From the NCBI GenBank assembly GCA_007693955.1, contig RECR01000111.1:1-36334 (forward strand): 36,334 nt of DNA, read 5' to 3'. How positions within the stretch are numbered: the first letter of the stretch is position 1; the number at the start of each line of letters is the position of its first letter. Source of the stretch: Gloeocapsa sp. DLM2.Bin57 (GTDB lineage: Bacteria; Cyanobacteriota; Cyanobacteriia; Cyanobacteriales; Gloeocapsaceae). Shown here piece by piece: positions 4,882 to 34,741 of the stretch. The translations under genes were made by a program, and so were the position numbers. The notes beneath the pieces are model-generated. The model searched no databases. It saw only the letters and a program-made list of their open reading frames with translations, and was not told where the DNA came from.

Positions 4882-4910
4882 TATCTATCATATAAATAGC
4901 TTTTTGTCAA
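4882..4910 (-). promoter_or_regulatory. candidate aldolase promoter
   Basis: On the minus strand a perfect TTGACA (4905-4910) is followed after 17 nt by TAGATA (4882-4887), a partial -10 match. The -35 box overlaps the stop codon of the upstream CHAT-FHA gene. It would give a leader of roughly 120 nt before the aldolase ATG. The evidence is sequence match only. Confidence 0.4.
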
Positions 4911-6430
4911 TATATGTTGGGATTTTCTAATCTAAATTCTAAAATTTGACCATTAATCGCTCCAAAACGGATTTTTGTGCCATGTTGTAGGGGTATATCT
5001 TGATGGTGAAATAATTCCCATTCACCAGAAATGTTGACATAAGTTCCGTAACGAGAAATATCTTTAAGAACATAGTGAGAACCATCGTCATTCTCTCGAT
5101 GTATGATTAAGGCGTGTTCTGAACTAATCCAGGGTTCTGTAATCACTACATCATTAGTCTCACCACTTCTACCGACGGGATGACGTCCAATCCTAATTAG
5201 ACCTTGAATTTTCCAGGTAGTCCTTTCTCCCTCTAATAAACATAAATAAGCCAATGGTGCAGATGGTAAAATAGTCGTCTCTACGGGGGGTTTGAGTATC
5301 ACTCCATCAAATTGAGGGTGCAGATAGAGGATAGGAAGAGTCCAAGTGGGTTGATTAAATTTATAGATAGTCAGTAATTGCTGTCTGGCTATTCTGACTC
5401 CCTCATCAATCGTCTTTCCTATGGCGATCGCCCCACTAAAAGCCTCAATAAAAGTTAAAGCCTCCTCATTAGTGATAGTATCTCGCATACCTAATACCGC
5501 TGGTATGCCATAATGTAATAAAACTTCTGCTAGACTACTGCGCTCAATCATCACCCCTTCTTCTTGATCAGGTTGAGCACTCCAACAAGCGTTAAACACA
5601 GTTAAGGTAACCTGGTTACGTACCAAAACTTGAGCTAATTCAATACCATTAATCGTAGTGTCACTTCTGAGGTATAACAAGCCTCCCTCGGGAGTTTTTT
5701 CTCCATGACCACCATAGAAAAATAGATTATAATCGCCATTATCTAAAGTTCTGATTAATTTTTTTGTACTTGGTTGTAGTAATATATCTATTTCAGCGGT
5801 TGAAGATGCTGCTTGAAAAATGTTTTTGAGGATTTCTGCTTCGTCTTCCTGAAGAGAAAAAGTTTCTTTTTCACCCAAAACTAACAAAATTTTCAGTTTT
5901 TCGGGTATTTTATCCTTTAATCTTAAGATACCCACATCACTACTAATCCTACTAAACAAAATCTGCTGATTTACCGATATAGCAGGTCTAGATGTACTAG
6001 GTAGCATAATCTCCCAGGGGATAGGAATCAAATCGGGATCGCGAATATCTAGACGAATCCGTAAACTAGCTTGTAACCCTAAAGCAAAAGATTGATTTTG
6101 TTCTAAACTACGTCGAATATCCCCACTCCACAACCATTCCCAGAGATTTACTCCGAATTGCTGCATCAATCTAGTGCTATAAGGAGTTTTATGATTCGGT
6201 AAAAGGTTTAACTCCTCAAAAGGAGTATTTTCCACGCCGGTAATATTATACCGTTGTCCTGGTGAAAACATTTCTTGCCAAGCTAACCAAATGGTAGTCA
6301 ATTCTGGAGACCAGGCTAAATGATGATGGGTAAAACCTTCTGGTAGAGGTGAATCAATTACCCAAACAGCAAAAATGACATTATCTGAGCTATTGAGTCG
6401 AGAAATAACTATAGTAAGATTGGGGTTCAT
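4907..6430 (-). CDS. CHAT-domain caspase-like protease fused to an FHA domain
   Basis: The 507-residue product has an N-terminal region (about 1-170) that leads into a caspase-like CHAT domain (about 175-375). The catalytic pair is visible: H242 in F-F-Y-G-G-H-G-E and C282 in F-N-A-C-W-S-A. After a Pro-rich linker (about 380-400), a C-terminal FHA domain (about 405-500) carries G415-R416, the S-x-x-H motif at 436-439 and a Y-G-T-Y-V-N turn, which are the phosphothreonine-binding core positions. CHAT proteases act as effectors or processing enzymes in several bacterial systems. Here the FHA domain would recruit a phosphorylated partner, implying Ser/Thr kinase input; that link is inference. 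No signal peptide or membrane segment is seen. No kinase or clear substrate gene is adjacent. Domain calls are confident; function is unknown. Confidence 0.9.
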   Translation of the reverse strand: MNPNLTIVISRLNSSDNVIFAVWVIDSPLPEGFTHHHLAWSPELTTIWLAWQEMFSPGQRYNITGVENTPFEELNLLPNHKTPYSTRLMQQFGVNLWEWLWSGDIRRSLEQNQSFALGLQASLRIRLDIRDPDLIPIPWEIMLPSTSRPAISVNQQILFSRISSDVGILRLKDKIPEKLKILLVLGEKETFSLQEDEAEILKNIFQAASSTAEIDILLQPSTKKLIRTLDNGDYNLFFYGGHGEKTPEGGLLYLRSDTTINGIELAQVLVRNQVTLTVFNACWSAQPDQEEGVMIERSSLAEVLLHYGIPAVLGMRDTITNEEALTFIEAFSGAIAIGKTIDEGVRIARQQLLTIYKFNQPTWTLPILYLHPQFDGVILKPPVETTILPSAPLAYLCLLEGERTTWKIQGLIRIGRHPVGRSGETNDVVITEPWISSEHALIIHRENDDGSHYVLKDISRYGTYVNISGEWELFHHQDIPLQHGTKIRFGAINGQILEFRLENPNIY

Positions 6431-10502: not shown

Positions 10503-11378
10503 TTATTTTAAACTTAAATATTTAGTAATATTCCACCATTGTTTAGGAAAACTTTCACCGAGATAACGATAATGTTTCCAGATATGCCAATAAGGACAAC
10601 CTGGTTTAATTGCTATACCCGCCCAATGTAAATATCTCAGTCTTTTCTCTTGGTCATAAAGTATATAGTCTTTATTAACAAAATGGGTAGAACCAGCCCA
10701 GCTTCCTGGTTCTTTTGGGTTATTTTTAGTTAAATTAATTTTCTTTTTAGTACTTTTTAAAATAACATAATTGAGAATAGGTTGGTCTGTAGTTTTACTA
10801 GAAAAATCAAAATATTCGGGATGTTGTGCACATTCTTCTAGTAATTGATACAGTTCATCTTCGCTAAATAATCCTTGTTGAGAAGCCCAAAAACCACTAT
10901 TAAAAACATCCCTTAATTCTGTTGAATTAAAAATGTTTTGTTCTTCTACTAAAGGAGAGAAAATATCTTGCAATCTTTTACTTTTATGATGATAGTCACA
11001 ACAGAGGAAGTTGTATTCTGTTAAATAATCTAATATTGTCGATAAAGGCTGAAAGACAACAATATCTGTATCTATATAAATAAATTCTTCTAAAGGTCCA
11101 AACCATTGCACAAATTTGCGCATTTTATTGGGTAAGTTAAGAAAATCTGCTGGGAAAATTGTAGCGACTTGAGTAGTAAATGTCTCAATTAATTGTAAAT
11201 CAGGGAAAAGTTCTACTCGGTGTTTAGTTTGTAAAGTCTTGGCTACTTGTTGATATTCTTGATTAAAGGGAATTAAAATAATCGGCAAATCAGGATCATA
11301 GAGACGAATACTATTAACTAGAGTAATAGCTTGTTCAACAACGCGATCGTTAGCAACTATATAAATACCTCTAGTCAT
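10503..11378 (-). CDS. Npun_R2821/Npun_R2823-type glycosyltransferase-like protein (copy 2)
   Basis: The 291-residue product begins with R-G-I-Y-I-V-A-N-D-R-V and has a nucleotide-sugar-type N-terminal Rossmann region followed by a D-x-D motif (D103-x-D105 in Y-I-D-T-D-I-V-V-F), the hallmark of metal-dependent GT-A glycosyltransferases such as family 8. Later conserved stretches include N-S-G-F-W-A-S, D-Q-P-I-L-N-Y and H-W-A-G. It is paralogous to the next upstream gene, with the same opening, D-x-D, D-Q-x-I-L-N-Y and histidine motifs. No signal peptide is visible. Sugar donor and acceptor are unknown. The start lies 6 nt after the upstream paralogue and the stop 1 nt before the PAP2 gene, so the three form one operon. 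Confidence 0.8.
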   Translation of the reverse strand: MTRGIYIVANDRVVEQAITLVNSIRLYDPDLPIILIPFNQEYQQVAKTLQTKHRVELFPDLQLIETFTTQVATIFPADFLNLPNKMRKFVQWFGPLEEFIYIDTDIVVFQPLSTILDYLTEYNFLCCDYHHKSKRLQDIFSPLVEEQNIFNSTELRDVFNSGFWASQQGLFSEDELYQLLEECAQHPEYFDFSSKTTDQPILNYVILKSTKKKINLTKNNPKEPGSWAGSTHFVNKDYILYDQEKRLRYLHWAGIAIKPGCPYWHIWKHYRYLGESFPKQWWNITKYLSLK

Positions 11379-11384
11379 ATTTAA

Positions 11385-12374
11385 TTATAATCCAATTTTT
11401 CTAGAGATTCTTTGCCATAAATTGGGGGGTTGATTATAGGGTTTTGCTTTTCCCTGGAATTTAGGTTTATTTTCTGGTTCATAAAGATAACGATAGCTTA
11501 AAAAGATCTCCCGATAAGGAAAATCGAGATTTTCACCTCGACAAACCCTAGTAAATAATTGGGAAGGTACGCCAATATAGTGTAAATAAGTTAAGGGATG
11601 ACCGTGATCATAGAGTAACATATCTTTTTGGACAAAATGAGAAGAAGTCACAGAATTACCGGTTTTTACTTGGGTGGGTAGATTAAGAGCGAGATTATAA
11701 ATAGAGTAATTGGACTTCATCATTAAATAATTAAGTATAGTCTGATCTGGTGCCATGGGGTAGAGAATTTCTATATCTCCTGCTTGTAATTGGTTAAATA
11801 GCCATTCTCGTTGGGATGGAGGGAATAAATTTCCTTTAGAAGCGTAAAAACCAGAACAAAAAATCTCTTTTTTAAGACGATTGCTAGCAAAGATAGAAGT
11901 TAAACGAGGAGAATCTACCTGATAAACGTGAGAAGGATCTTTATATTGGAAATCGTAAACTATACAATTATGTTGCTCAAGAAGGGCAAAAATGCTATCA
12001 ACGGGAGAGAGAAGTAGGGTATCTGCATCCATGTAGAGAAAAGACGAGAAAGGACCATCAAAAGCGTAATAGCGGTGATGAGTGCCCAAGCGATGGTATC
12101 CTGTGCTACCTGCTTGTAACCAGCGTTGACGAGCATTAGGGTGAATATCCCAGATAGCTTTAATATAATTATCCCATTCTGCCATGACTAGGGCATCACT
12201 ATATAGCTGTACTTGGGGACGTTTAGCTATGACAGTACTAATTGCTGTAATCTGATCATCGTAGGGATAGACGCAAATAGGGAAATCTTTGCCCATGGTT
12301 GCTTCAATACTGTTAAGTAAGGCGATGAGTTGATCATAGACGCGATCGTTAGCCAGAGTGCAAATTCCTTTCAT
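11385..12374 (-). CDS. Npun_R2821/Npun_R2823-type glycosyltransferase-like protein (copy 1)
   Basis: The 329-residue product opens with K-G-I-C-T-L-A-N-D-R-V and contains a GT-A-type D-x-D motif (D116-x-D118 in L-Y-M-D-A-D-T-L-L-L). It also has C-S-G-F-Y-A-S, D-Q-T-I-L-N-Y and L-H-Y-I-G blocks that it shares with its neighbour at 10503-11378. It is about 40 residues longer, with an insertion before the D-x-D motif (W-L-Q-A-G-S-T-G-Y-H-R-L-G) and a Pro/Lys-rich tail. It is likely a cytoplasmic sugar transferase of unknown donor. It is the first gene of the three-gene set; the chlP hairpin lies just upstream (12391-12417), separating it from chlP. Confidence 0.8.
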   Translation of the reverse strand: MKGICTLANDRVYDQLIALLNSIEATMGKDFPICVYPYDDQITAISTVIAKRPQVQLYSDALVMAEWDNYIKAIWDIHPNARQRWLQAGSTGYHRLGTHHRYYAFDGPFSSFLYMDADTLLLSPVDSIFALLEQHNCIVYDFQYKDPSHVYQVDSPRLTSIFASNRLKKEIFCSGFYASKGNLFPPSQREWLFNQLQAGDIEILYPMAPDQTILNYLMMKSNYSIYNLALNLPTQVKTGNSVTSSHFVQKDMLLYDHGHPLTYLHYIGVPSQLFTRVCRGENLDFPYREIFLSYRYLYEPENKPKFQGKAKPYNQPPNLWQRISRKIGL

Positions 12375-15221: not shown

Positions 15222-17411
15222 ATGAACGTAGAACTAGCCCAAATCCCCGATGAAGAAATAAAACAGTCCATTTCTCGGAAGACTCAAGTAGATAACTCTG
15301 TCAAATTAGTCTTTAACATTTTTAAGCGTAATTGGCCTATCGTATTATTATTGATGCTGATAGGCGGGTCAATCGGCTGGTTTTCCAGAAGAGAATCTCC
15401 CTATGTGGGAAAATTTAATATTCTAGTAGAGCCAGCTAGCAACGATCGCTTCAGCGATCCTACTGCTCTGATTACTGGTGGACGAAATCCAGGAGATAGG
15501 GTTGACTATCCAACCCAGTTAGAAATTTTAAGAAGTCCTGTAATGCTTAATGCTATAGCAGAGAGATTAACCGCTGAATTTCCTGGTAGTTCCCCTGATG
15601 CTATCACTACCAATTTGAGAAGAAACCTAAGCGCACAAAGACTTCAAGCCGGAGTAAGTCGTTTTGACCAGACTAAGATTATTTCGGTTCGTTATGCAGG
15701 TCGCAATCCTCGGGAAGTGTTGCGGGTTCTTGAGGCTACAGCAGAAACCTTTCTTGAATATAGTTTAGCGGAAAGACAGAATACTATTCAAGCAGGTGTA
15801 TCTTTTATTGATAATCAAGTTCCCGACATTCAGGGAAAAATTTCGGAAATTCAAACTCAGCAACAAGATATTCAAAAGCAACACCAATTGATTAGTCCTG
15901 AGCAAAAAGGTCAAGAATTATTCTTGCGCAATAATCAATTACAAGCCCAAATGCGAGAGGTTGAAGGCAGTATCAAAGAATTAACAGGAATTTTAAATAA
16001 TCTCAGTAATCAAGTTGGTTTAACCGTTGACGAAGTGATGTTATTCATGCAGCTGCGCAAAGATAATGAATTCCAAACGGATTTGCAAACTTTGCAAGAA
16101 TTACAACTACAACTTAGAGAGTTAGATAATGCTATTACAGCTCAATCAGCTCGTTTTAGCGAAGGTAGTCCAATGTTAACCACTTTACAAGAAAGACGTT
16201 CTTTTGTATTCAATCTCGTTGAACAGAGAAAAGAAGATATGCTCATCAAGTATAATCTCGGTATTACTAGTGACTCTAATATCTTGTCTTTACAAAATGA
16301 AACTACAGATAGTTTAATGGCACAAATGCTAAATACCCAAACTCAAATCGAGGTACTAGAGTCACGCTATCAATCTTTATCAGCAACTCAGCAACAAGTT
16401 GAACAACAACTCCTAGGAATTACTCAAGTAATTAAAGATTATAGTGAGTTACAAAGGCAACTTGTGTTGACCACTAATACTCTCAATCAACTAACCTTAG
16501 AAAGAGAAAGATTAAACGTTGCAGGAGCACAACAAGAACAACCTTGGGAACTCATCTCACCTCCTGAAATTATTTCTCACAATATAGATGGTTCACCGCT
16601 AGAATCTCAAATATCAGAAAAAAGAGTAATGGCAGGTGTAGTTGGTGGTTTATTACTAGGGATGTTGTTGGCTACCGTTCTAGAAAAAATGAAAAATACC
16701 TATAACAAAGAGGCAGATTTACTGTTAAATTATAATTTGCCGATTTTAGGAAAAATTCCCTTACCAATTCTCAATAGTCAAGAAACAACAGAAGAGACAG
16801 AAATAAGTGATTTACTCAATGATCCTCAAGCTATAGAAGCTACTAAAGCTTTATACACAGAAATCTATTTTAAATCTAAAGAAAAATCACTTAATTCTTT
16901 AGCAATGTGTGCAGTAGAGCCAGGAGATGGTCAAGCTTTTGTTACCGCTAGTTTAGCTAAAATGGCTGCAGAAGCAGGACAAAAAGTTTTAGTAGTAGAT
17001 ACTAATTTTGCTCAACCTGCTATTCACAAATATTTCTCTATCAATAATGAAAAAGGTTTAGCAGAATTGCTCACTTATTCCCTTAAAGCTGATTCTCTGA
17101 TTCAACAAACAGAATTAAATCCCAATTTATCAATTTTACCCACTGGTACTACGGGAGAAGGAATTAATATTAATTTATCCTCTAATCAGTTTAAGGAATT
17201 AATGAATTCACTAGCTAGACAATATGATTTAGTTATTTACAACACCCCAATGTTTTTGGAATCTTCTGATATTAGTTGTTTAACCAGCAATACTGATGGT
17301 ATATTAATGGTTGTAAGGCTCAAGAGCACTTCTCAATCTATAGTCAGACAAGCTTTCACAAAAATAAATTCTTTCAACTTACCTATTTTAGGGTTTGTCG
17401 CTACTTATTGA
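15222..17411 (+). CDS. Wzc-like polysaccharide co-polymerase with a degenerate tyrosine-kinase domain
   Basis: The 729-residue product has an N-terminal Wzz domain with a membrane helix (about 37-55), a long periplasmic coiled-coil region (about 190-440, many Gln-rich heptads), a second helix (about 468-488) and a cytoplasmic BY-kinase-like ATPase domain (about 540-729). In the kinase domain the Walker A region reads A-V-E-P-G-D-G-Q-A-F (about residue 566) and lacks the Lys and Ser/Thr of G-K-S/T. Walker A' reads V-V-D-T-N-F and Walker B reads V-I-Y-N-T-P with Asn for Asp. No Tyr-rich tail is present. It should act in chain-length control or export of an exopolysaccharide, probably without kinase activity. 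It is first in an operon with Wzy-like and TagA-like genes (11-nt and 5-nt gaps). Confidence 0.88.
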   Translation: MNVELAQIPDEEIKQSISRKTQVDNSVKLVFNIFKRNWPIVLLLMLIGGSIGWFSRRESPYVGKFNILVEPASNDRFSDPTALITGGRNPGDRVDYPTQLEILRSPVMLNAIAERLTAEFPGSSPDAITTNLRRNLSAQRLQAGVSRFDQTKIISVRYAGRNPREVLRVLEATAETFLEYSLAERQNTIQAGVSFIDNQVPDIQGKISEIQTQQQDIQKQHQLISPEQKGQELFLRNNQLQAQMREVEGSIKELTGILNNLSNQVGLTVDEVMLFMQLRKDNEFQTDLQTLQELQLQLRELDNAITAQSARFSEGSPMLTTLQERRSFVFNLVEQRKEDMLIKYNLGITSDSNILSLQNETTDSLMAQMLNTQTQIEVLESRYQSLSATQQQVEQQLLGITQVIKDYSELQRQLVLTTNTLNQLTLERERLNVAGAQQEQPWELISPPEIISHNIDGSPLESQISEKRVMAGVVGGLLLGMLLATVLEKMKNTYNKEADLLLNYNLPILGKIPLPILNSQETTEETEISDLLNDPQAIEATKALYTEIYFKSKEKSLNSLAMCAVEPGDGQAFVTASLAKMAAEAGQKVLVVDTNFAQPAIHKYFSINNEKGLAELLTYSLKADSLIQQTELNPNLSILPTGTTGEGININLSSNQFKELMNSLARQYDLVIYNTPMFLESSDISCLTSNTDGILMVVRLKSTSQSIVRQAFTKINSFNLPILGFVATY

Positions 17412-17422
17412 TAGGATAATTT

Positions 17423-18844
17423 ATGACTTTAATTGCCAAAGCAGTTTTATTACTCTGGCTACCTATAGCCGTTAACTTTTTTAGGTGTTATCCCCCTAGA
17501 AAAGCAATTTTAATCACCTTAATCGTAGGAATATTGTTTTTACCTACGAGAGTGTTATTTAACTTACCTCTTATTCCCAATTATGATAGTGAAACTGCAG
17601 TAGTTTACCCGATTATTATTGGATTATTTATCTATGATACTAAGTGGTTGACTCGCTTAGAACCCTGGTGGTTAGACGTACCTATACTCATTTTTTGCAT
17701 CAGCAGTATTTTCGCTTCTGTACGTAATGATTTAGGGATTTACGATGGTGTTAATGAAAGCCTCAGGATGGTGTGGCTATACGGAGTACCCTATCTAGTA
17801 GGACGTGTCTATTTTAATAACTTAGATAGTATCAGAAATCTAGCAGTAGCAATCGTTAAGGGGGGCTTGGTTTATGTACCTTTTTGTCTTTATGAAGTGC
17901 TGATGAGTCCGCAACTACACCGCATGATTTATGGTTACTTTCCTCATGGTAGCGGTATTACGCAAGCTATTCGTCTGGGAGGATATCGCCCCATGGTATT
18001 TATGAATCATGGTTTAGCTGTAGGACTATTTATGATGACAGCTACACTTATAGCGGTTTGGTTATGGCAATCAAAAGCGGTGGGAGAAATCTGGGGGTTT
18101 GACTTAGTCTATATAGTACCTGTGTTGGTTTTTACGCTTATTTTGGTTCGTTCCACAGGTGCTTACCTTCTTTTTGCCTATGGATTAGTAATTTTAGCTT
18201 TTGCTAAATGGCGCAAATCTATCTGGCCTTTTTTGTTATTAATAATTGGGATAATTACTTATCTATATATTGCTATTCAAGGTAATTTGGATAAACCTAC
18301 TCTAGTATTACCAGTCTTAGAGTTTCTAAGCAACTTTGCCTCTCCAGACAGAATAGGATCTCTAGAGTTTCGTATAGATGAAGAAATACTGCTCATAGAT
18401 AAAGCCAGGGAACAATTTTGGTTTGGTTGGGGAGGATGGGGACGTAGTAGAGTCTTTGAAGAAAATAACTACGGAATTTTTCAAGATGTGTCTATTACAG
18501 ATAGTCTTTGGATTATTGTTTTTGGTACTAAAGGTGTTATAGGTATTGTTAGTATAGCTCTATCCATGTTACTACCTTCTTTATTATTTCCCTATCTACG
18601 TCACCCCGTAAGAACTTGGTTTTATCCTCGGGTTGGTAGTGCAGCAGTTTTTGCTGTTCTTTTACCTTTATTTATGTTGGATAATTTATTGAATTATCAT
18701 TTAACTGTCGTTGGTTGGGTAATGGTTGGCTCACTCACGGGATTAATCCTAAATACTCAAGAGGATTTAAGTATCACTGGAGGAAAAAATGTGCCTAAAA
18801 CTAAATATGTAGAGAAAATACCAGAGAAAGTAGGACAAAAATAG
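17423..18844 (+). CDS. O-antigen ligase/polymerase-like membrane protein (Wzy/WaaL type)
   Basis: The 473-residue product is a polytopic membrane protein with about ten to twelve hydrophobic helices through residue 440 and a short charged cytoplasmic tail. A larger loop between late helices (about 290-370) holds R-I-G-S-L-E-F-R-I-D-E-E and W-F-G-W-G-G-W-G-R, which is the layout of Wzy polymerases and O-antigen ligases. Such proteins polymerise lipid-linked repeat units or attach glycan at the periplasmic face. Its position between a Wzc-like and a WecB/TagA-like gene supports a role as the polymerase of an exopolysaccharide. Sequence alone does not separate polymerase from ligase. Confidence 0.8.
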   Translation: MTLIAKAVLLLWLPIAVNFFRCYPPRKAILITLIVGILFLPTRVLFNLPLIPNYDSETAVVYPIIIGLFIYDTKWLTRLEPWWLDVPILIFCISSIFASVRNDLGIYDGVNESLRMVWLYGVPYLVGRVYFNNLDSIRNLAVAIVKGGLVYVPFCLYEVLMSPQLHRMIYGYFPHGSGITQAIRLGGYRPMVFMNHGLAVGLFMMTATLIAVWLWQSKAVGEIWGFDLVYIVPVLVFTLILVRSTGAYLLFAYGLVILAFAKWRKSIWPFLLLIIGIITYLYIAIQGNLDKPTLVLPVLEFLSNFASPDRIGSLEFRIDEEILLIDKAREQFWFGWGGWGRSRVFEENNYGIFQDVSITDSLWIIVFGTKGVIGIVSIALSMLLPSLLFPYLRHPVRTWFYPRVGSAAVFAVLLPLFMLDNLLNYHLTVVGWVMVGSLTGLILNTQEDLSITGGKNVPKTKYVEKIPEKVGQK

Positions 18845-18849
18845 TTGTC

Positions 18850-19659
18850 ATGAACACAGTGAATTTACTAAACATTTATATAGATAATATTTCCCTGATT
18901 GAACTTTTAGAAAAGTTAACTCAAGGTGGTGGCTTTGTGGTTACTCCCAATGTGGATTATCTAATCAAATTACGTCGAGAACCATCTTTATGGAAAGCTT
19001 ATAAAATCTCTAATTATAGGTTGTGTGATAGTAAAATATTGGAATATACTTTTAAGTTTCTAGGAACTCCTGTTAAGGAAAAAATCTCTGGTTCTGATTT
19101 ATTTCCAGCTTTTTATAACTATAATAAAGATAATGAAAATATCAAAATATATCTATTAGGAGCACAAGAAGGAGTTGCTCAAAAAGCTAAAGAGATAATT
19201 AATCAAAAAGTAGGCAGAGATATTGTAGTTGAAGCTTATTCTCCTAGTTTTGGTTTTGAAAATAATCAAGCTGAATGTGAAAAAATTATTAAAAGCATTA
19301 ATGATTCAGGAGCTAATGTGTTAGCTATAGGTGTGGGTGCGCCTAAACAAGAAAAATGGTTACTTAAATACTCTGAGCAACTTTCTAATGTTAAAACTTT
19401 TTTTGCCATTGGTGCAACTATTGATTTTGAAGCAGGTGTTAAACCTAGATCACCAAAATGGATTAGTAATATAGGTTTAGAATGGTTGTATCGCTTATTG
19501 AGTGAACCTAAACGTCTTTGGAAAAGATATTTAGTTGATAGTTTACCCTTTTTTTGGTTAGTGTTATTTCAAAAGTTTTCTTTATTCTATGACTATCCTA
19601 GTGCTTTTAATGATTATGATCAAATTGCTACTTATGTAGAATTAGATTCAGTGCTATAG
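18850..19659 (+). CDS. WecB/TagA/CpsF family glycosyltransferase
   Basis: The 269-residue product has the GT26 family signatures: V-V-T-P-N-V-D-Y-L near residue 33, Y-L-L-G-A-Q-E-G-V, the conserved V-G-A-P-K-Q-E-K-W-L near 165, and G-A-T-I-D-F-E-A-G-V with P-R-S-P-K-W-I near 195. The family transfers N-acetylmannosamine(uronic acid) or related sugars to a lipid-linked intermediate at the inner membrane face. The C-terminal amphipathic part (R-L-W-K-R-Y-L, then aromatic residues) fits membrane association. It is third in the polysaccharide operon, 5 nt after the Wzy-like gene, and is followed by a hairpin terminator. Donor sugar is unknown. Confidence 0.9.
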   Translation: MNTVNLLNIYIDNISLIELLEKLTQGGGFVVTPNVDYLIKLRREPSLWKAYKISNYRLCDSKILEYTFKFLGTPVKEKISGSDLFPAFYNYNKDNENIKIYLLGAQEGVAQKAKEIINQKVGRDIVVEAYSPSFGFENNQAECEKIIKSINDSGANVLAIGVGAPKQEKWLLKYSEQLSNVKTFFAIGATIDFEAGVKPRSPKWISNIGLEWLYRLLSEPKRLWKRYLVDSLPFFWLVLFQKFSLFYDYPSAFNDYDQIATYVELDSVL

Positions 19660-20583: not shown

Positions 20584-21135
20584 TTATTTAGCTAAATGGA
20601 AATCTTGTAAGTAAAGTAATCCAGAAATCAGGGTTAAAGCTACAGCAAGCCAAAAAACAACGATCGCCAGATTAGACCAAAATATAGGTAAAGGTGCGAT
20701 TAATAGGGCGATCGCCCCAATTTGAGTTACTGTTTTCAATTTACCCCAGATACTAGCACCACTAATCTGATTACTATTACTGAGTTGGGGGTTAACTCTC
20801 CACCCGGCGATCGCTATTTCTCTACCGATAATTAAAAATACTCCCCAAGCGGGAATTTGATTTAACTCTACTAAGGCTAACAAGGGTGCGATCACTAGTA
20901 GTTTATCCACCAAAGGATCTAAAAATTTACCCAATTCCGTTACTTGATTCAATTTACGAGCTAAATAACCATCTAACCAATCAGTAGCTGCGGTAACTAA
21001 AAAAATAGCCAAAGCAAAATAGCGTGCTCGCGTAGCGAGATCCTGCGGATCGCTTGAAGTAGGATCATGGAGGAAATAGATAATAAAGGGTATTCCCAAA
21101 AGACGAGACAGGGTAATCGAGTTAGGAAGATTCAT
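20584..21135 (-). CDS. pgsA: CDP-diacylglycerol-glycerol-3-phosphate 3-phosphatidyltransferase PgsA
   Basis: PgsA makes phosphatidylglycerol phosphate, the precursor of phosphatidylglycerol, an essential thylakoid lipid. The 183-residue membrane protein contains the CDP-alcohol phosphatidyltransferase signature, D-x2-D-G-x2-A-R-x8-G-x3-D-x3-D, starting in D-W-L-D-G-Y-L-A-R. About five hydrophobic helices follow the N-terminal N-L-P-N-S-I-T-L-S-R. Residues about 27-37 (S-D-P-Q-D-L-A-T-R-A-R) come from an in-frame palindromic repeat at 21025-21057 and are not expected in the family; they lie in the first loop, before the catalytic motif. The start overlaps the end of the Hsp70-like gene by 14 nt. 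Confidence 0.95.
   Translation of the reverse strand: MNLPNSITLSRLLGIPFIIYFLHDPTSSDPQDLATRARYFALAIFLVTAATDWLDGYLARKLNQVTELGKFLDPLVDKLLVIAPLLALVELNQIPAWGVFLIIGREIAIAGWRVNPQLSNSNQISGASIWGKLKTVTQIGAIALLIAPLPIFWSNLAIVVFWLAVALTLISGLLYLQDFHLAK
21025..21057. repeat. double-hairpin dispersed repeat inserted in frame in pgsA
   Basis: Two adjacent 5-bp hairpins, CTCGC-GTA-GCGAG (21027-21039) and GATCC-TGC-GGATC (21039-21051), share one G. The insert is about 33 nt, a multiple of three, and keeps pgsA open. It has much higher GC than the flanking gene and resembles small dispersed repeats of cyanobacteria. Confidence 0.75.
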
Positions 21136-23062
21136 TGGTTAAAGGAAGATTAATCAGCAATGGTTCAGAAGCTTGCTGTATAGTTTGAGAGAAGAGTTTT
21201 GCTAGTAATTCTTTGAGATGATCACATAAGGGGGTATTAGTACGATAATAACCTTGTTGTTCCGATAAAATCAAAGATTTTTTACCAGAAAAACTCGTAA
21301 CTATTATACCAGAAGGAAATTGACCTTGAAGTAAAGCGAGTAAACGTTTGAGACAAACCCGCGTATTAATACCCCGAGTAGCTAACTGTTGGATTAATTC
21401 TTCTATAGTAAACAACTCTTGAGGAAGGGTATTTAATAACTCTTTTAGCAGGAAATAATCACTATACTGATGTCGAGATTTAGCTAAAACTTGAGGGAAT
21501 AAGGGTAAATAAGCTAAACCACGAGCTACTCTAATACTATTTTCTGCTTCTGTATCTATCATAACCTGAGCTTGGGGGAATTTTCCTGCTAACCAAGTCA
21601 AGAGATGGTTTTTTATTCCTAAGATTAACCCACCATTAGCGACAACTTGTTTAATTTCTCTGTTGCTAATATTTTTCTCAGTCAATAACTGTTGTAGAAG
21701 TTGTTCTAAATTACTTAAAAATGGTTTGAGAATAATTTCTTGTAAATCTTGACTCCTAGCTAAACAATTATAACCCCCTAGAGGAAGATTAAAGACTTCT
21801 TGGTCTTGCAACATTAAACTAATTAATCTAGCTGCTTCTAAAAAAGAATAAGCAAAAGGATAAGTTTGTAAATATTGATCTAATTGATAACGATTCAGTG
21901 AAGCTACTTTACCAGGTGTGGGTAATTCACTATCAATAGGTGGTATTTCTCTACTATAAATAGGATAGATAAACTGACTAAAAATATCTTGTTCTAATGC
22001 ACGTTGACCATAGGATATACTAGTTAGACTAAAATCATGCTCAGACAAATTTTGCCAAGATTCGGGAAGATTAACTAGGGCTATTTCTGTGGTAGAATTA
22101 CCCCCATTAATTACTAATGTCCAACCAGACGTTAACCTATTATCTCCATATCTTCCCAATAGACTAGCTATAGCTTCTTCTAGAAAAAATATTTCTCCTG
22201 ATTCTTCGACTAAATGAGTTTTTAAAATGCTTTCCCGCAAATTAAATTTATAAGTATCACTCCAATTACTCGGAAAACTAACTATGATACCCTGTAATTG
22301 TCCTAATGCTTGTTTAACATCTACATCAGATAAATCTGGTGTTGTTGCTAAATATAATTGAGACAATAATTTAGGTAATAATTCTGCTAAATTTTGGAGT
22401 AATTCTGATTCTATATCTATTACCCAATCTAAATAACATTTATAATTATCAATAACAATATCTGTATCTTGAGGGAATCCTTCTCCTGCTAGTATTAAAA
22501 AATTGTTAATAGTTGAACGATAAATTAAGCTAGGATAACGGGATTGTTGGGTTACTAATCCGTCGAGATTTTTAATTGACCAATAAAGAGGATATTGTTG
22601 TTGTTGGTTAAGATTAAGTAAAACTGCTGCTATACCTAGAGTACCAAAATCTAAACCTAAATACCAGATATCACGTTTTGATTTTACCTGTAATAAGTCT
22701 ATAAGACTATTAATTTTAGTTGATTCTTTTGGGGGAGACGATTCTAGTATTGCAGGTGTAGGGATTTCTGTGGTTGATTGATTTAGTAATAGTTGCTTTA
22801 ATTGGTTGATTTCTTGTTTTAAATCCTCTATTGATTCAGCAATTTCTAGAGTAGGTATTTTATTAACTACCGCTTCACTAATGACTCTCGCTAGTTTTTC
22901 TACTCTATCTTCTGGTTGTGGTTGTTGCTGCATATAGCTAAGGTATTGATGTATTCTTAGCAATATTTCTCGATGTTTTTCGTTATTTAATAAAGAGGTA
23001 TTAGCTTCTTTGAGAAAACGTTCAAAATCATTTAGTAAGGAGTTGAGTTCATCATTATTCAT
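21122..23062 (-). CDS. divergent Hsp70/actin-fold ATPase-like protein with N-terminal coiled coil
   Basis: The 646-residue product has a helical and coiled-coil N-terminal region (about 1-95), a Pro/Ser linker and an actin/Hsp70-type ATPase region (about 130-500). The phosphate-1 loop reads L-G-L-D-F-G-T-L-G-I-A near 134, the phosphate-2 loop V-I-N-G-G-N-S-T-T-E-I near 312, and the adenosine motif V-V-A-N-G-G-L-I-L-G near 470. The phosphate-2 loop has Asn where Hsp70 has Asp (D-x-G-G-G-T), and there is no canonical Hsp70 substrate-binding beta domain; the tail is helical. It may be a specialised chaperone or a non-hydrolysing sensor; this is inference. It sits between tmk (2-nt gap) and pgsA (14-nt overlap), so it is co-translated with housekeeping enzymes. 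Confidence 0.75.
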   Translation of the reverse strand: MNNDELNSLLNDFERFLKEANTSLLNNEKHREILLRIHQYLSYMQQQPQPEDRVEKLARVISEAVVNKIPTLEIAESIEDLKQEINQLKQLLLNQSTTEIPTPAILESSPPKESTKINSLIDLLQVKSKRDIWYLGLDFGTLGIAAVLLNLNQQQQYPLYWSIKNLDGLVTQQSRYPSLIYRSTINNFLILAGEGFPQDTDIVIDNYKCYLDWVIDIESELLQNLAELLPKLLSQLYLATTPDLSDVDVKQALGQLQGIIVSFPSNWSDTYKFNLRESILKTHLVEESGEIFFLEEAIASLLGRYGDNRLTSGWTLVINGGNSTTEIALVNLPESWQNLSEHDFSLTSISYGQRALEQDIFSQFIYPIYSREIPPIDSELPTPGKVASLNRYQLDQYLQTYPFAYSFLEAARLISLMLQDQEVFNLPLGGYNCLARSQDLQEIILKPFLSNLEQLLQQLLTEKNISNREIKQVVANGGLILGIKNHLLTWLAGKFPQAQVMIDTEAENSIRVARGLAYLPLFPQVLAKSRHQYSDYFLLKELLNTLPQELFTIEELIQQLATRGINTRVCLKRLLALLQGQFPSGIIVTSFSGKKSLILSEQQGYYRTNTPLCDHLKELLAKLFSQTIQQASEPLLINLPLTNESS

Positions 23063-31200: not shown

Positions 31201-32052
31201 TCATAGTTTTTGCTGATTGAGGGGAGGAAATTCTAGGGCGATCGCCCCTAGGTTTCCTGTGCGAAAATCATTGAGTAGCGCCATAGCCGTTTTTTCTTTG
31301 TCTTCTTGATAACGTCTTATGGCTAATTTCTCTAGATATTCTTCCCCTGTCATTGTTTCTAGGGGTAGATTATATCGAGTTGTCAACACTTTTTCTACGT
31401 TTAATTCTGCTAATAAATCAACTAGGGTGATAGCGATGAGTTGATTATCATAAGCTGCTTCGCCAATATCTTCACAGATAGCTAGTTTAACCGCGTCTGT
31501 TTGGTTTTCTAGTTTGACGGGAATTATCCCTGGTGCGTCTAATAGTTCGATACTCTCTGATAGTCTTACCCAACGTAATTGACGGGTTACACCTGCTCTT
31601 CTCGCACTAGCTACTACTTTACGATTGAGTAAGCGATTAATTAGAGCTGATTTTCCGACATTAGGAAATCCAATGACTACAGCTCTGACTGGACGTGGTA
31701 ATAAACCTCGACTGCGTCTTTTCTCGTTGACTTTCACCCCTACTAATTGAGCTGCTTTGGTTACTGCTTTAATTCCTTCTCCTGTTTTACCATTAGTAAA
31801 GTAGGGTTCTTCTCCTTGTTGACGAAACCAGTTTAACCACTGTTGGTGTGCTTTTTCCCCAATCATATCTACACGATTGATTACTAGTAGTTTTGGTTTT
31901 GTTCCTAACCAGTTATTGATTTCGGGGTGATGAGAAGCTAGGGGAATTCTCGCGTCACGTACTTCTAACACAACGTCAACCTGTTTGAGTTGTTCTTTGA
32001 GTTGTTTTTCGGCTTTGGCTATATGTCCAGGATACCACTGGATTAGAGACAT
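31201..32052 (-). CDS. ylqF: ribosome biogenesis GTPase YlqF/RbgA
   Basis: The protein is a circularly permuted GTPase that helps mature the large ribosomal subunit. I chose the ATG at 32052, which gives 283 residues beginning M-S-L-I-Q-W-Y-P-G-H-I-A-K-A-E-K, the invariant family start. An in-frame ATG at 32208 would add 52 Asn/Lys-rich residues and overlap the start of the divergent gene. Motif order is permuted: G4 as N59-R-V-D62 (Arg for the usual Lys), G1 as G-F-P-N-V-G-K-S (128-135), then G3 D-A-P-G. The C-terminal helical domain is present. It lies 38 nt upstream of ndhB and may be co-transcribed with it. Confidence 0.93.
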   Translation of the reverse strand: MSLIQWYPGHIAKAEKQLKEQLKQVDVVLEVRDARIPLASHHPEINNWLGTKPKLLVINRVDMIGEKAHQQWLNWFRQQGEEPYFTNGKTGEGIKAVTKAAQLVGVKVNEKRRSRGLLPRPVRAVVIGFPNVGKSALINRLLNRKVVASARRAGVTRQLRWVRLSESIELLDAPGIIPVKLENQTDAVKLAICEDIGEAAYDNQLIAITLVDLLAELNVEKVLTTRYNLPLETMTGEEYLEKLAIRRYQEDKEKTAMALLNDFRTGNLGAIALEFPPLNQQKL

Positions 32053-32146
32053 TGTTTCTTGTTCCTGCAAACTATAGTTTATTTTAAGATTTTTGGGCGG
32101 GTTTTTATGCTTTACTAATTTTAGGTTATGGTTTTGATTAGTAATT

Positions 32147-34741
32147 ATGAAGTATTTTAAATATTTATTTTTGTTATTTGTTGTTCCTATTTTATTATTA
32201 ATTACCACTAAGTTTTCTGTTACCGCTCAACCTATGAATATAGTAATGATTGACCAGGAAATCGCTCATATTGCTGAACTTTGGACAACTGCTAGTAATG
32301 ACCAAAAAGCTAAGTTAGGCTTAGCGGATATGTTATTATTTAGCGCTAAAGATAGATTAGCACAACAACCAGATTTAGCATCAGAATTTTATAATCAAGC
32401 TAAAACAATTACTAACAATCCTCAAAGTTTAGGTAATCCAGCTTATACTAGGTTTACAGTTAATCAACTGATTTTTTATGCTATTGGTACAGATAAGATA
32501 GCTTATTTATTACGAGGAGAAACAGAAAACGTTAGTTTAGATAGTATCCACTATCCCACTCAACATCATAGTTTTATTAAACCTGCTTTGGGTGCACGTC
32601 CTTTGTGGCAAGCTTCTTTTACCAGAGCGGATCGGGAAGAATTAACCGAAACTTTTATTAATAGTGTCCAAGCTAAATTAACAGCAACTCCTCAACTAAT
32701 TGAAACAAATAGTTATCGAGGTTTGCATTTTAAATGGTTAAATGTACCAATTCCTGATTCAAGAGAACAAGCTAATATTGAAGCTGAATTAAGGCTATAT
32801 CCAAATAGTGAGAAATCCGATTGGTATATCAATGTTATCCCTAAAGGAAACCAGAATCAAGCAACAAAAGTTCTCTATGAGGTAGAGTTTCCGATTATTC
32901 CTAATGTCAGTAAACAAACGGGAAATACTAATCAAGATTATCTGGTTTTTCCTTTTCAATCTGGAGAATTATATATTAATCCTAGTCAAACTTTAGCCAA
33001 ACCTAGAAAAACTCTCTATCCAGGTCACACCAGATGGCAATCACTAGTTTATTACCAGGGTAACCAGGGCATGAATTTTATGGTTACTGATGCTGATGGT
33101 TACGCGAAAACAGCTATAGCACAAAAAGCAGACAATCAAACGATACAACTATCTTGGCTACATCATCCCCCTAGACAAGGTTATCCTAAGAGTAAATTAG
33201 CGATGTTTGGTCCTCATCAAAATGTTAATTATAGTTGTCGTTTAGTGACTTTTACGGGAGATTGGTACGAGGGAGCGCAAGTTTATCGAGATTGGATGTT
33301 ACAACAAGATTTCTTGGGGACAGGAAAACCAAAGAAATTGAGTAGTAATCCTGAAGCTGCAGATTGGGCGAAAAAAATGATCGTTTCTTATCGGACTTTT
33401 TCACCTTTTGGGTGGGAAAATTTGCCCGATTTATTAGGAGATGAAAGTAACCAGGTTAGACAAGTCTATGACTTTCATAAAGCTAATCTACCTAATTATC
33501 CAGGACAAGTGAGTATTTATGCTTGGCGCACTATTGAAGCGGAAACCTCAACCTTTTTCGATCGCCCTGAAGTCGCACCCCCAGGTAGAAATTATATCGG
33601 ACCACGTTTTGGCGAAGCGATCGCCTATCTGAGGGCTAATAACCTCAATGGCAACCCTTTTATTGAATCACCCTTATGGGATGTAAATGGAACAACCTAT
33701 AAACCCGAAAATGGTGGTAAAATAGCGATGCTTTATTACAATCGCCGACCAATTAGAGTAAGATTCGGTAAAGGTAAAAAAGAGACTGTCTTTAGTTGGA
33801 TAGATGTAGGTGAGGAACAATGGATTCAAAAACAAGAAGGTATTGCAGAAGCACTGTTAAAAAGCGCTAAATCTGAACCAGAAAAAATCGACGGTGTTTA
33901 TTTTGACCTATCCCTGACTATTAATCAACTCAATCATCGCAATCCTAACACCGTTGGTGGTCAACACGCTAGTTACGGTTGGAAAAATTTGTTTCAAAGG
34001 GTGAATAATAAAGCTCGTAGAGGTAGTGGAAGTCATAGTAATCCTCGTTATACTCTCTTTACTGAGGGAATGGCTGACTGTTTTCTCAACCTGAACCATT
34101 TTTATTTACATTTTCAACAAGATTTACCCTTTGATATCGCTTTGTGGGGAGATTATAATAAAACCTACGGGATTAAATCTTCTTGGTCACCTTTAGATGA
34201 TGATGCTACTAACGATTGGCAACAAGCTATACCCCAGGGACGTGCTTTAGCTTGGGGTCAACCTATTGGTCGAATTGATAGTACAATGATTCAAGCAGGA
34301 CCAACGGTAAATAATTTTCTGATCAATTTAGCTCATCATCGTTACGTTAATCAGGACTATTTGAGTATGGGTAGAATGCTCAAACCAGTGACTATTAATC
34401 AGATTCAGTGGAGTACTCCTCCTTCTCCTGCTATACCTGCTAATCAATTACCAGACGTGATGATACCTAATGGGGTTTTTGCTCACTCCCAGGAGGGTAA
34501 TAACACCGTTTTATTTATCTTTGTTAATGGTGCAATAGATAGATCAAGCGCCACTGTAGATTTTACGATTAATCCTGCTCAGTATGGTATTCCTAGCAAC
34601 TATCAACTTTATCGTCGCACCGTCAATGGTAATCCCGCAACTGCTACTGATACGGTGGTAGGTAATTTTAGTCAAGGTAGTCTGACTCAAAGTAGGCAAT
34701 TACAACCATTGGAAATCGTTACTTATGTGGCTAAACCGTAA
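32147..34741 (+). CDS. large secreted DUF6259-type putative glycoside hydrolase
   Basis: The 864-residue product starts with a clear signal peptide (hydrophobic 6-22, likely cleavage after V-T-A near 27). A helical N-terminal part (about 30-100) and a beta-rich region (about 130-340) precede Y-P-G-H-T-R-W-Q-S, then a probable (beta/alpha)8 region (about 400-720) and a C-terminal beta domain. The pattern V-Y-F-D-L-S near D587, followed by a G-G-Q-H-A-S-Y-G-W segment and F-T-E-G-M-A-D (E640), resembles DUF6259 proteins, which are glycoside-hydrolase-like. D587 and E640 are candidate catalytic acids by analogy only. The product is probably exported to the periplasm or outside; substrate is unknown. 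It is transcribed alone, divergent from ylqF with 94 nt between starts. Confidence 0.72.
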   Translation: MKYFKYLFLLFVVPILLLITTKFSVTAQPMNIVMIDQEIAHIAELWTTASNDQKAKLGLADMLLFSAKDRLAQQPDLASEFYNQAKTITNNPQSLGNPAYTRFTVNQLIFYAIGTDKIAYLLRGETENVSLDSIHYPTQHHSFIKPALGARPLWQASFTRADREELTETFINSVQAKLTATPQLIETNSYRGLHFKWLNVPIPDSREQANIEAELRLYPNSEKSDWYINVIPKGNQNQATKVLYEVEFPIIPNVSKQTGNTNQDYLVFPFQSGELYINPSQTLAKPRKTLYPGHTRWQSLVYYQGNQGMNFMVTDADGYAKTAIAQKADNQTIQLSWLHHPPRQGYPKSKLAMFGPHQNVNYSCRLVTFTGDWYEGAQVYRDWMLQQDFLGTGKPKKLSSNPEAADWAKKMIVSYRTFSPFGWENLPDLLGDESNQVRQVYDFHKANLPNYPGQVSIYAWRTIEAETSTFFDRPEVAPPGRNYIGPRFGEAIAYLRANNLNGNPFIESPLWDVNGTTYKPENGGKIAMLYYNRRPIRVRFGKGKKETVFSWIDVGEEQWIQKQEGIAEALLKSAKSEPEKIDGVYFDLSLTINQLNHRNPNTVGGQHASYGWKNLFQRVNNKARRGSGSHSNPRYTLFTEGMADCFLNLNHFYLHFQQDLPFDIALWGDYNKTYGIKSSWSPLDDDATNDWQQAIPQGRALAWGQPIGRIDSTMIQAGPTVNNFLINLAHHRYVNQDYLSMGRMLKPVTINQIQWSTPPSPAIPANQLPDVMIPNGVFAHSQEGNNTVLFIFVNGAIDRSSATVDFTINPAQYGIPSNYQLYRRTVNGNPATATDTVVGNFSQGSLTQSRQLQPLEIVTYVAKP

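Follow-up and report, generated by a model that had tools for sequence, protein, structure and literature searches.

A predicted exported, GH129-like alpha-glycosidase of the uncharacterised family DUF6259 in the cyanobacterium Gloeocapsa

To our knowledge, the enzymes with which cyanobacteria edit their sheaths are poorly known. Among the enzymes of solved structure, those that come closest to the protein described here belong to the GH129 group. ZgDagB (ZGAL_3152; PDB 5opq, 8rzg-8rzk) is a GH129-like exo alpha-1,3-(3,6-anhydro)-D-galactosidase, and NagBb (GH129, PDB 5wzn) is an alpha-N-acetylgalactosaminidase. The DagB mutants of D486, E517, E531 and D202' are inactive, and D486 corresponds to NagBb D435; in the view of the same authors, DagB does not conserve the second catalytic residue of NagBb and should form a family of its own (PMC5698469). 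NagBb has a Ca2+ site and a Trp398 platform, and the catalytic domain of GH101 enzymes resembles it (PMC8106489). In the literature searched we have found no paper naming the family DUF6259 (PF19773), and hence no assayed member is known from it.

The gene studied here lies in a 36,334-nucleotide stretch of Gloeocapsa sp. DLM2.Bin57, which we call the window. It is a complete ORF with an ATG start that encodes 864 aa, and its coordinates are exactly those given by an earlier sequence-only reading of the same DNA. The gene, its parts and the adjoining upstream region are as follows:

32147..34741, plus strand: whole gene, DUF6259/GH129-like predicted exported alpha-glycosidase (ORF and PF19773 match)
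32147..32230, plus strand: residues 1-28, hydrophobic helix, probable type I signal peptide (VTA/Q) or membrane anchor (sequence; model helix 2-22)
32240..32422, plus strand: residues 32-92, small helical domain with helices 32-46, 51-70 and 75-90 (model)
32438..33259, plus strand: residues 98-371, N-terminal beta-sandwich, galactose-mutarotase-like (model; GalM rows align with 97-371)
33257..33295, plus strand: residues 371-383, GDWYEGAQVYRDW, strongest family signature, joining sandwich to barrel (~20 bits of the Pfam score)
33362..34381, plus strand: residues ~406-745, TIM barrel (model; aligns to GH129, GH66 and GH13 enzymes)
33905..33907, plus strand: D587 codon, predicted catalytic nucleophile at the end of barrel strand 4 (invariance, alignment with NagBb D435, model)
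34064..34066, plus strand: E640 codon, predicted acid/base at the end of barrel strand 5 (invariance, alignment with NagBb E478/DagB E517, model)
34391..34738, plus strand: residues 749-864, C-terminal beta-sandwich (model; weak GH30C-type matches in 8/33 family members)
32053..32146, no strand: 94-bp intergenic region between the divergent rbgA-like GTPase gene and the DUF6259 gene (sequence; pair kept in L002 and L003)

The N-terminus consists of a hydrophobic helix (residues 2-22) followed by a plausible signal-peptidase-I site, VTA/QPM, assigned by eye, and inspection of the sequence revealed no lipobox Cys there. A hydrophobic N-terminal segment is also found in the protein of a sister species (G121) and in the fragment from a third species; residues 20-27 have low confidence in the AlphaFold2 model. 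Export of the protein via this N-terminal signal is probable. In many other family members ~245-270 residues precede the GDW motif, whereas 370 do so here.

By its sequence, the gene is a member of DUF6259. Residues 359-657 match PF19773 with an E value of 7.3e-16 and 58.6 bits, above the curated gathering cut-off of 28.7, and the sister-species gene matches at 72.1 bits. This bore out the DUF6259 call of the sequence-only reading, which had relied on the spaced motifs V-Y-F-D (584-587), G-G-Q-H (604-607) and F-T-E-G (638-641). The motifs are real and could all be placed, but they contribute few of the bits. We have located the family signal by scanning nested truncations of the protein against Pfam: ~20 bits came from 365-385, which holds GDWYEGAQVYRDW, and ~20 from 480-520, with ~4 bits at VYFD (582-590) and ~8 in 640-650, just past FTEG. 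The signature common to the protein and the PF19773 members is GDW...YR.W.

A plain first scan of genomes returned zero relatives, and searches of plasmids, phages and viral contigs returned none. The query alignment (A2) contained two artificial rows (rows 2 and 3), changed outside the GDW motif and carrying guessed variants within it, whose purpose was to steer the search patterns to this motif; confirmation was done with the native window sequence. This recovered 32 loci, distributed among Planctomycetota, Lentisphaerota, Armatimonadota, Hydrogenedentota, Bacteroidota, Acidobacteriota, Verrucomicrobiota and Chloroflexota. The window protein, its sister and 31 of the 32 loci (L042, a fragment, was omitted) were assembled into an alignment of 33 proteins (A3), every one of which matched PF19773 individually (33/33). 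Some members carry extra domains (CBM4_9, CBM9, SGNH lipase or a GH30C-like sandwich), and there are up to 19 family-profile matches per genome, with 19 in one Victivallales genome. Two of the genomes (G602 and G607, those of L027 and L048) hold separate GH129 (PF11308) genes in addition to 14 and 19 DUF6259 matches, respectively. Two sets of candidates were discarded: L006-L010, from another cyanobacterial family, have PF19773 E values of ~1e-4, below the cut-off, and were judged to show distant barrel similarity, L006, the one whose sequence was inspected, looking like a different type of TIM-barrel hydrolase; and a match in G305 (E 3e-4) covers 49 residues with an internal stop codon and was taken as chance.

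In a 31-row alignment (A4), 13 columns are invariant, including D587 and E640, the residues that the sequence-only reading had named as possible catalytic acids and whose numbering is correct in the translation. The conservation of D587, E640, D315, P249, G273, P478, G605, G704, G742 and N794 is independent of the search patterns, while that of G371, W373 and Y380 is partly by construction, owing to the GDW-region pattern. The invariance of D587 and E640 is not built in, since the search patterns contained neither residue. P249, G273 and D315 fall in the N-terminal beta-sandwich and N794 falls in the C-terminal one.

The AlphaFold2 model computed from the 31-row alignment has a mean pLDDT of 79 and a pTM of 0.85. 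From N- to C-terminus it shows a likely export helix, a helical bundle (32-90), a first beta-sandwich, the TIM barrel and a second beta-sandwich, and its barrel (~406-745) agrees with the TIM-barrel-like middle proposed earlier. The barrel strands are 413-417, 453-457, 500-507, 583-587, 636-640, 652-656, 672-677 and 707-710, which puts D587 and E640 at the ends of the fourth and fifth strands, on the C-terminal face of the barrel, as the sequence-only reading had required of catalytic acids. The pLDDT drops below 50 in the loops 422-431, 461-482 and 680-687; these probably border the pocket, since they come after barrel strands, and being poorly modelled they leave the pocket unreadable for specificity.

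Searches of the PDB with the single sequence or with a three-sequence profile gave no match, and the GH129 link appeared only with the 31-row family profile. This profile, in line with the earlier expectation of a profile match to DUF6259 or glycoside hydrolases, matched ZgDagB (5opq, E 1.1e-14; also 8rzg-8rzk) and NagBb (5wzn, E 2.1e-6). In the resulting alignments, counted by position, the family's YlD lies on NagBb D435 (= D587) and its ttEs on NagBb E478 (= E640), whereas in DagB the family's tTE lies on E517 (= E640). We take NagBb E478 to be the acid/base. DagB D486 would be the counterpart of D587, since it corresponds to NagBb D435, which is aligned with D587. The alignments further suggest that both catalytic residues may be common to DagB and NagBb, E517 and E478 falling in one column through DUF6259, at low identity.

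The model gave the same picture. Foldseek returned DagB as best match (3e-19), with GH101 entries carrying a mutated Asp (D764N) or Glu (E796Q) in its list. VIA-align ranked NagBb entries at the top (Z 22.4 with an rmsd of 3.8 A and 552 residues aligned; rmsd 3.5-3.9 A over ~553 residues across the entries), followed by FpGalNase (Z 20.9) and DagB (Z 20.3); the Z gaps between adjacent rows are small, so that the enzymes after NagBb are close rivals. The NagBb and DagB matches span all three main domains, while the GH66 rows cover the barrel and C-terminal domain only and most GH13-type rows do not extend over the N-terminal sandwich. The predicted succession of beta-sandwich, TIM barrel and C-terminal beta-sandwich (AlphaFold2 model, Foldseek, VIA-align) is the GH129 fold, and an Asp and a Glu are placed after barrel strands 4 and 5 (profile alignment and model strands), which are the GH129 catalytic positions. 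The GH129 sequence model PF11308, searched at E values up to 10, matched neither this genome nor that of the sister species, but did match in other genomes of that search. The protein is thus not classed as GH129 by sequence model, yet it appears GH129-like in fold and in both catalytic positions.

In samples of ~290 genomes from the phylum and 391 from the order, neither of them exhaustive, the gene was found only in the window's own genus, where it occurred in 3/3 species examined of the genus/family, the third (G291) being a fragment at a contig end. The sister-species protein is 70% identical and keeps both catalytic acids; outside the genus, the nearest relative found reaches ~27% identity. 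The dN/dS ratio is ~0.14 against the sister species (with a dS of 1.5, near saturation) and 0.23 against the third species' fragment, and the gene is under purifying selection. In the tree, a branch 2.55 changes per column long leads to the cyanobacterial pair; its placement is weak (79/82), and the letter make-up of the pair is unlike that of the rest of the tree. Gene transfer is possible: the gene is absent from the sampled cyanobacteria outside the genus, but gene and window agree in GC content (0.374 vs. 0.373) and the tree offers no donor. Relative to the family, the pair has lost two residues, the second His of HGH and the Gln that follows D587, and at three positions Tyr is replaced by W667, Asp by H651 and Glu by D644. 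With several family-typical residues lost in the cyanobacterial branch, the pocket differs, and the alterations suggest a changed substrate.

The gene is present in a single copy in the genome and is flanked by genes for a ribosome-assembly-type GTPase and an asparaginase. The rbgA-like GTPase gene starts with the ATG at 32052 on the minus strand, since its homologues begin MPVIQWYPGH or MSLIQWYPGH and an ATG is present there; it is therefore divergent from the DUF6259 gene without the overlap that the ORF listing had shown, a pairing kept in all three species. A consensus scan of the 94-bp intergenic region revealed no convincing promoter. A non-ribosomal peptide synthetase-like ORF (L002, 4541-5605) takes the place of the asparaginase gene after it in the sister species. 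Neither transporters or other hydrolases nor a degradation cluster were found around the gene, and its genome contains no sulfatase; the sister genome has three sulfatase genes (contigs C191 and C138).

The region had been described as otherwise housekeeping. This held in part, but the window also includes glycan-type genes 4-24 kb from the gene, coding for a Wzc/BY-kinase-like protein, a WecG/TagA/CpsF glycosyltransferase, LptF/LptG, weak glycosyltransferase matches and a GalE-like epimerase. At 15222-19659, the Wzc/BY-kinase-like protein, a 473-aa protein without Pfam match and the WecG/TagA/CpsF glycosyltransferase lie in a row; by sequence this is an exopolysaccharide module, with the 473-aa protein as a possible polymerase or flippase. 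Two adjoining proteins at 10503-12374 have glycosyltransferase matches below cut-off (Glyco_transf_8, Mannosyl_trans3), a 646-aa protein at 21122-23062 beside thymidylate kinase has a best Pfam match of E 0.16, and a single protein at 4907-6430 combines CHAT (caspase-like) and FHA domains. A tie between the DUF6259 gene and these exopolysaccharide genes gains no support from position, since they are not near it in the stretch of the sister's contig examined.

Taken together, the protein is probably an exported glycoside hydrolase, DUF6259 being a sister family of GH129 within the GH129/GH101/GH13 group and D587/E640 serving a retaining mechanism. Our best reading, in which we infer activity, stereochemistry, exo mode, sugar and location alike, is a secreted alpha-glycosidase that retains configuration and probably acts in exo mode. 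The N-terminal signal would take the protein out of the cytoplasm, and the beta-sandwich would pack against the TIM barrel and help to form the pocket. D587 would attack the anomeric carbon while E640 protonates the leaving group; an E640-activated water would then free the sugar, so that the alpha configuration would be retained. If NagBb and DagB are a guide, the enzyme probably works from the chain end, and the terminal sugar it removes is alpha-linked and galacto-configured (Gal, GalNAc or a sugar derived from them).

Two other accounts of the protein were weighed. An inactive, lectin-like or structural relative that binds glycan and does not cleave it would suit the long branch to the cyanobacterial pair and the several altered pocket-side residues (second H of HGH, Q after D587, Y667, D651), but both predicted catalytic acids are kept here and in the 70%-identical sister, and the gene evolves under purifying selection; we regard this account as improbable. 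A D-nucleophile/D-acid pair as in GH36/GH31 (clan GH-D), instead of the GH129 D/E pair, is more doubtful still and in our view very unlikely: GH36 and GH31 enzymes with a like sandwich-barrel-sandwich plan are strong fold matches, but the profile-to-sequence matches go to GH129-type enzymes, the second residue aligned is a Glu, invariant and placed after strand 5, and the rmsd is 3.5-3.9 A to NagBb but 6.4-7.0 A to most GH36 alpha-galactosidases.

The role of an active enzyme is harder to assign. We prefer, at about even chances, the reading that it trims the sheath or capsule glycan of its own cell, since the organism is a photoautotroph, the gene is a single stand-alone copy and no degradation genes adjoin it. 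An enzyme turned outward, freeing sugars for uptake from the glycans of mat partners or of algal and plant debris, seems rather unlikely. It would agree with the catabolism of mucin and carrageenan by the solved relatives and with the many copies per genome in Lentisphaerota and Planctomycetota, resembling polysaccharide degraders; the solitary copy, the genome devoid of sulfatases and neighbours that are not transporters or hydrolases speak against it. The own sheath or capsule is accordingly somewhat more likely as target than foreign polysaccharide, and a DagB-like breakdown of sulfated galactan was set aside because of the missing sulfatase. A bolder version of own-glycan trimming, which we offer tentatively and do not expect to hold, is that a deep GH129-like branch proper to the genus, with its helical domain and remodelled pocket, acts on an unusual alpha-linked sugar of the sheath or capsule. 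If true, the substrate would represent a specificity new to the GH129/DUF6259 group, and the enzyme's role would be that of a dedicated cyanobacterial sheath editor.

What is new is a further, deeply separate member of a known, uncharacterised family. DUF6259 is widespread, and the GH129 link with two named residues gives it a testable mechanism; the gene itself is a clean, single-copy candidate for a sheath-editing enzyme in cyanobacteria. GH129-type relatives of DUF6259 trim mucin and seaweed carrageenan, and the gene product most likely would clip alpha-linked sugars off a polysaccharide, as judged from sequence and model. Since the protein and the solved enzymes have only 8-11% of their sequence in common, their substrates are not transferable.

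Compared with ZgDagB, the protein has the same three-domain plan, and the essential E517 is aligned with E640, but identity is 9-11%; DagB also requires E531 and, from its second monomer, D202, and works in a carrageenan cluster with sulfatases, unlike this gene. NagBb has D435/E478 aligned with D587/E640 at 8% identity, and its family model PF11308 does not match the gene. The GH101 endo-alpha-N-acetylgalactosaminidases (5a55-5a59, 2zxq) are among the top Foldseek matches, but are far larger multi-domain endo-enzymes with a low TM-score (~0.36). Within the PF19773 family, the cyanobacterial protein forms a deep separate branch with an extra N-terminal helical domain.
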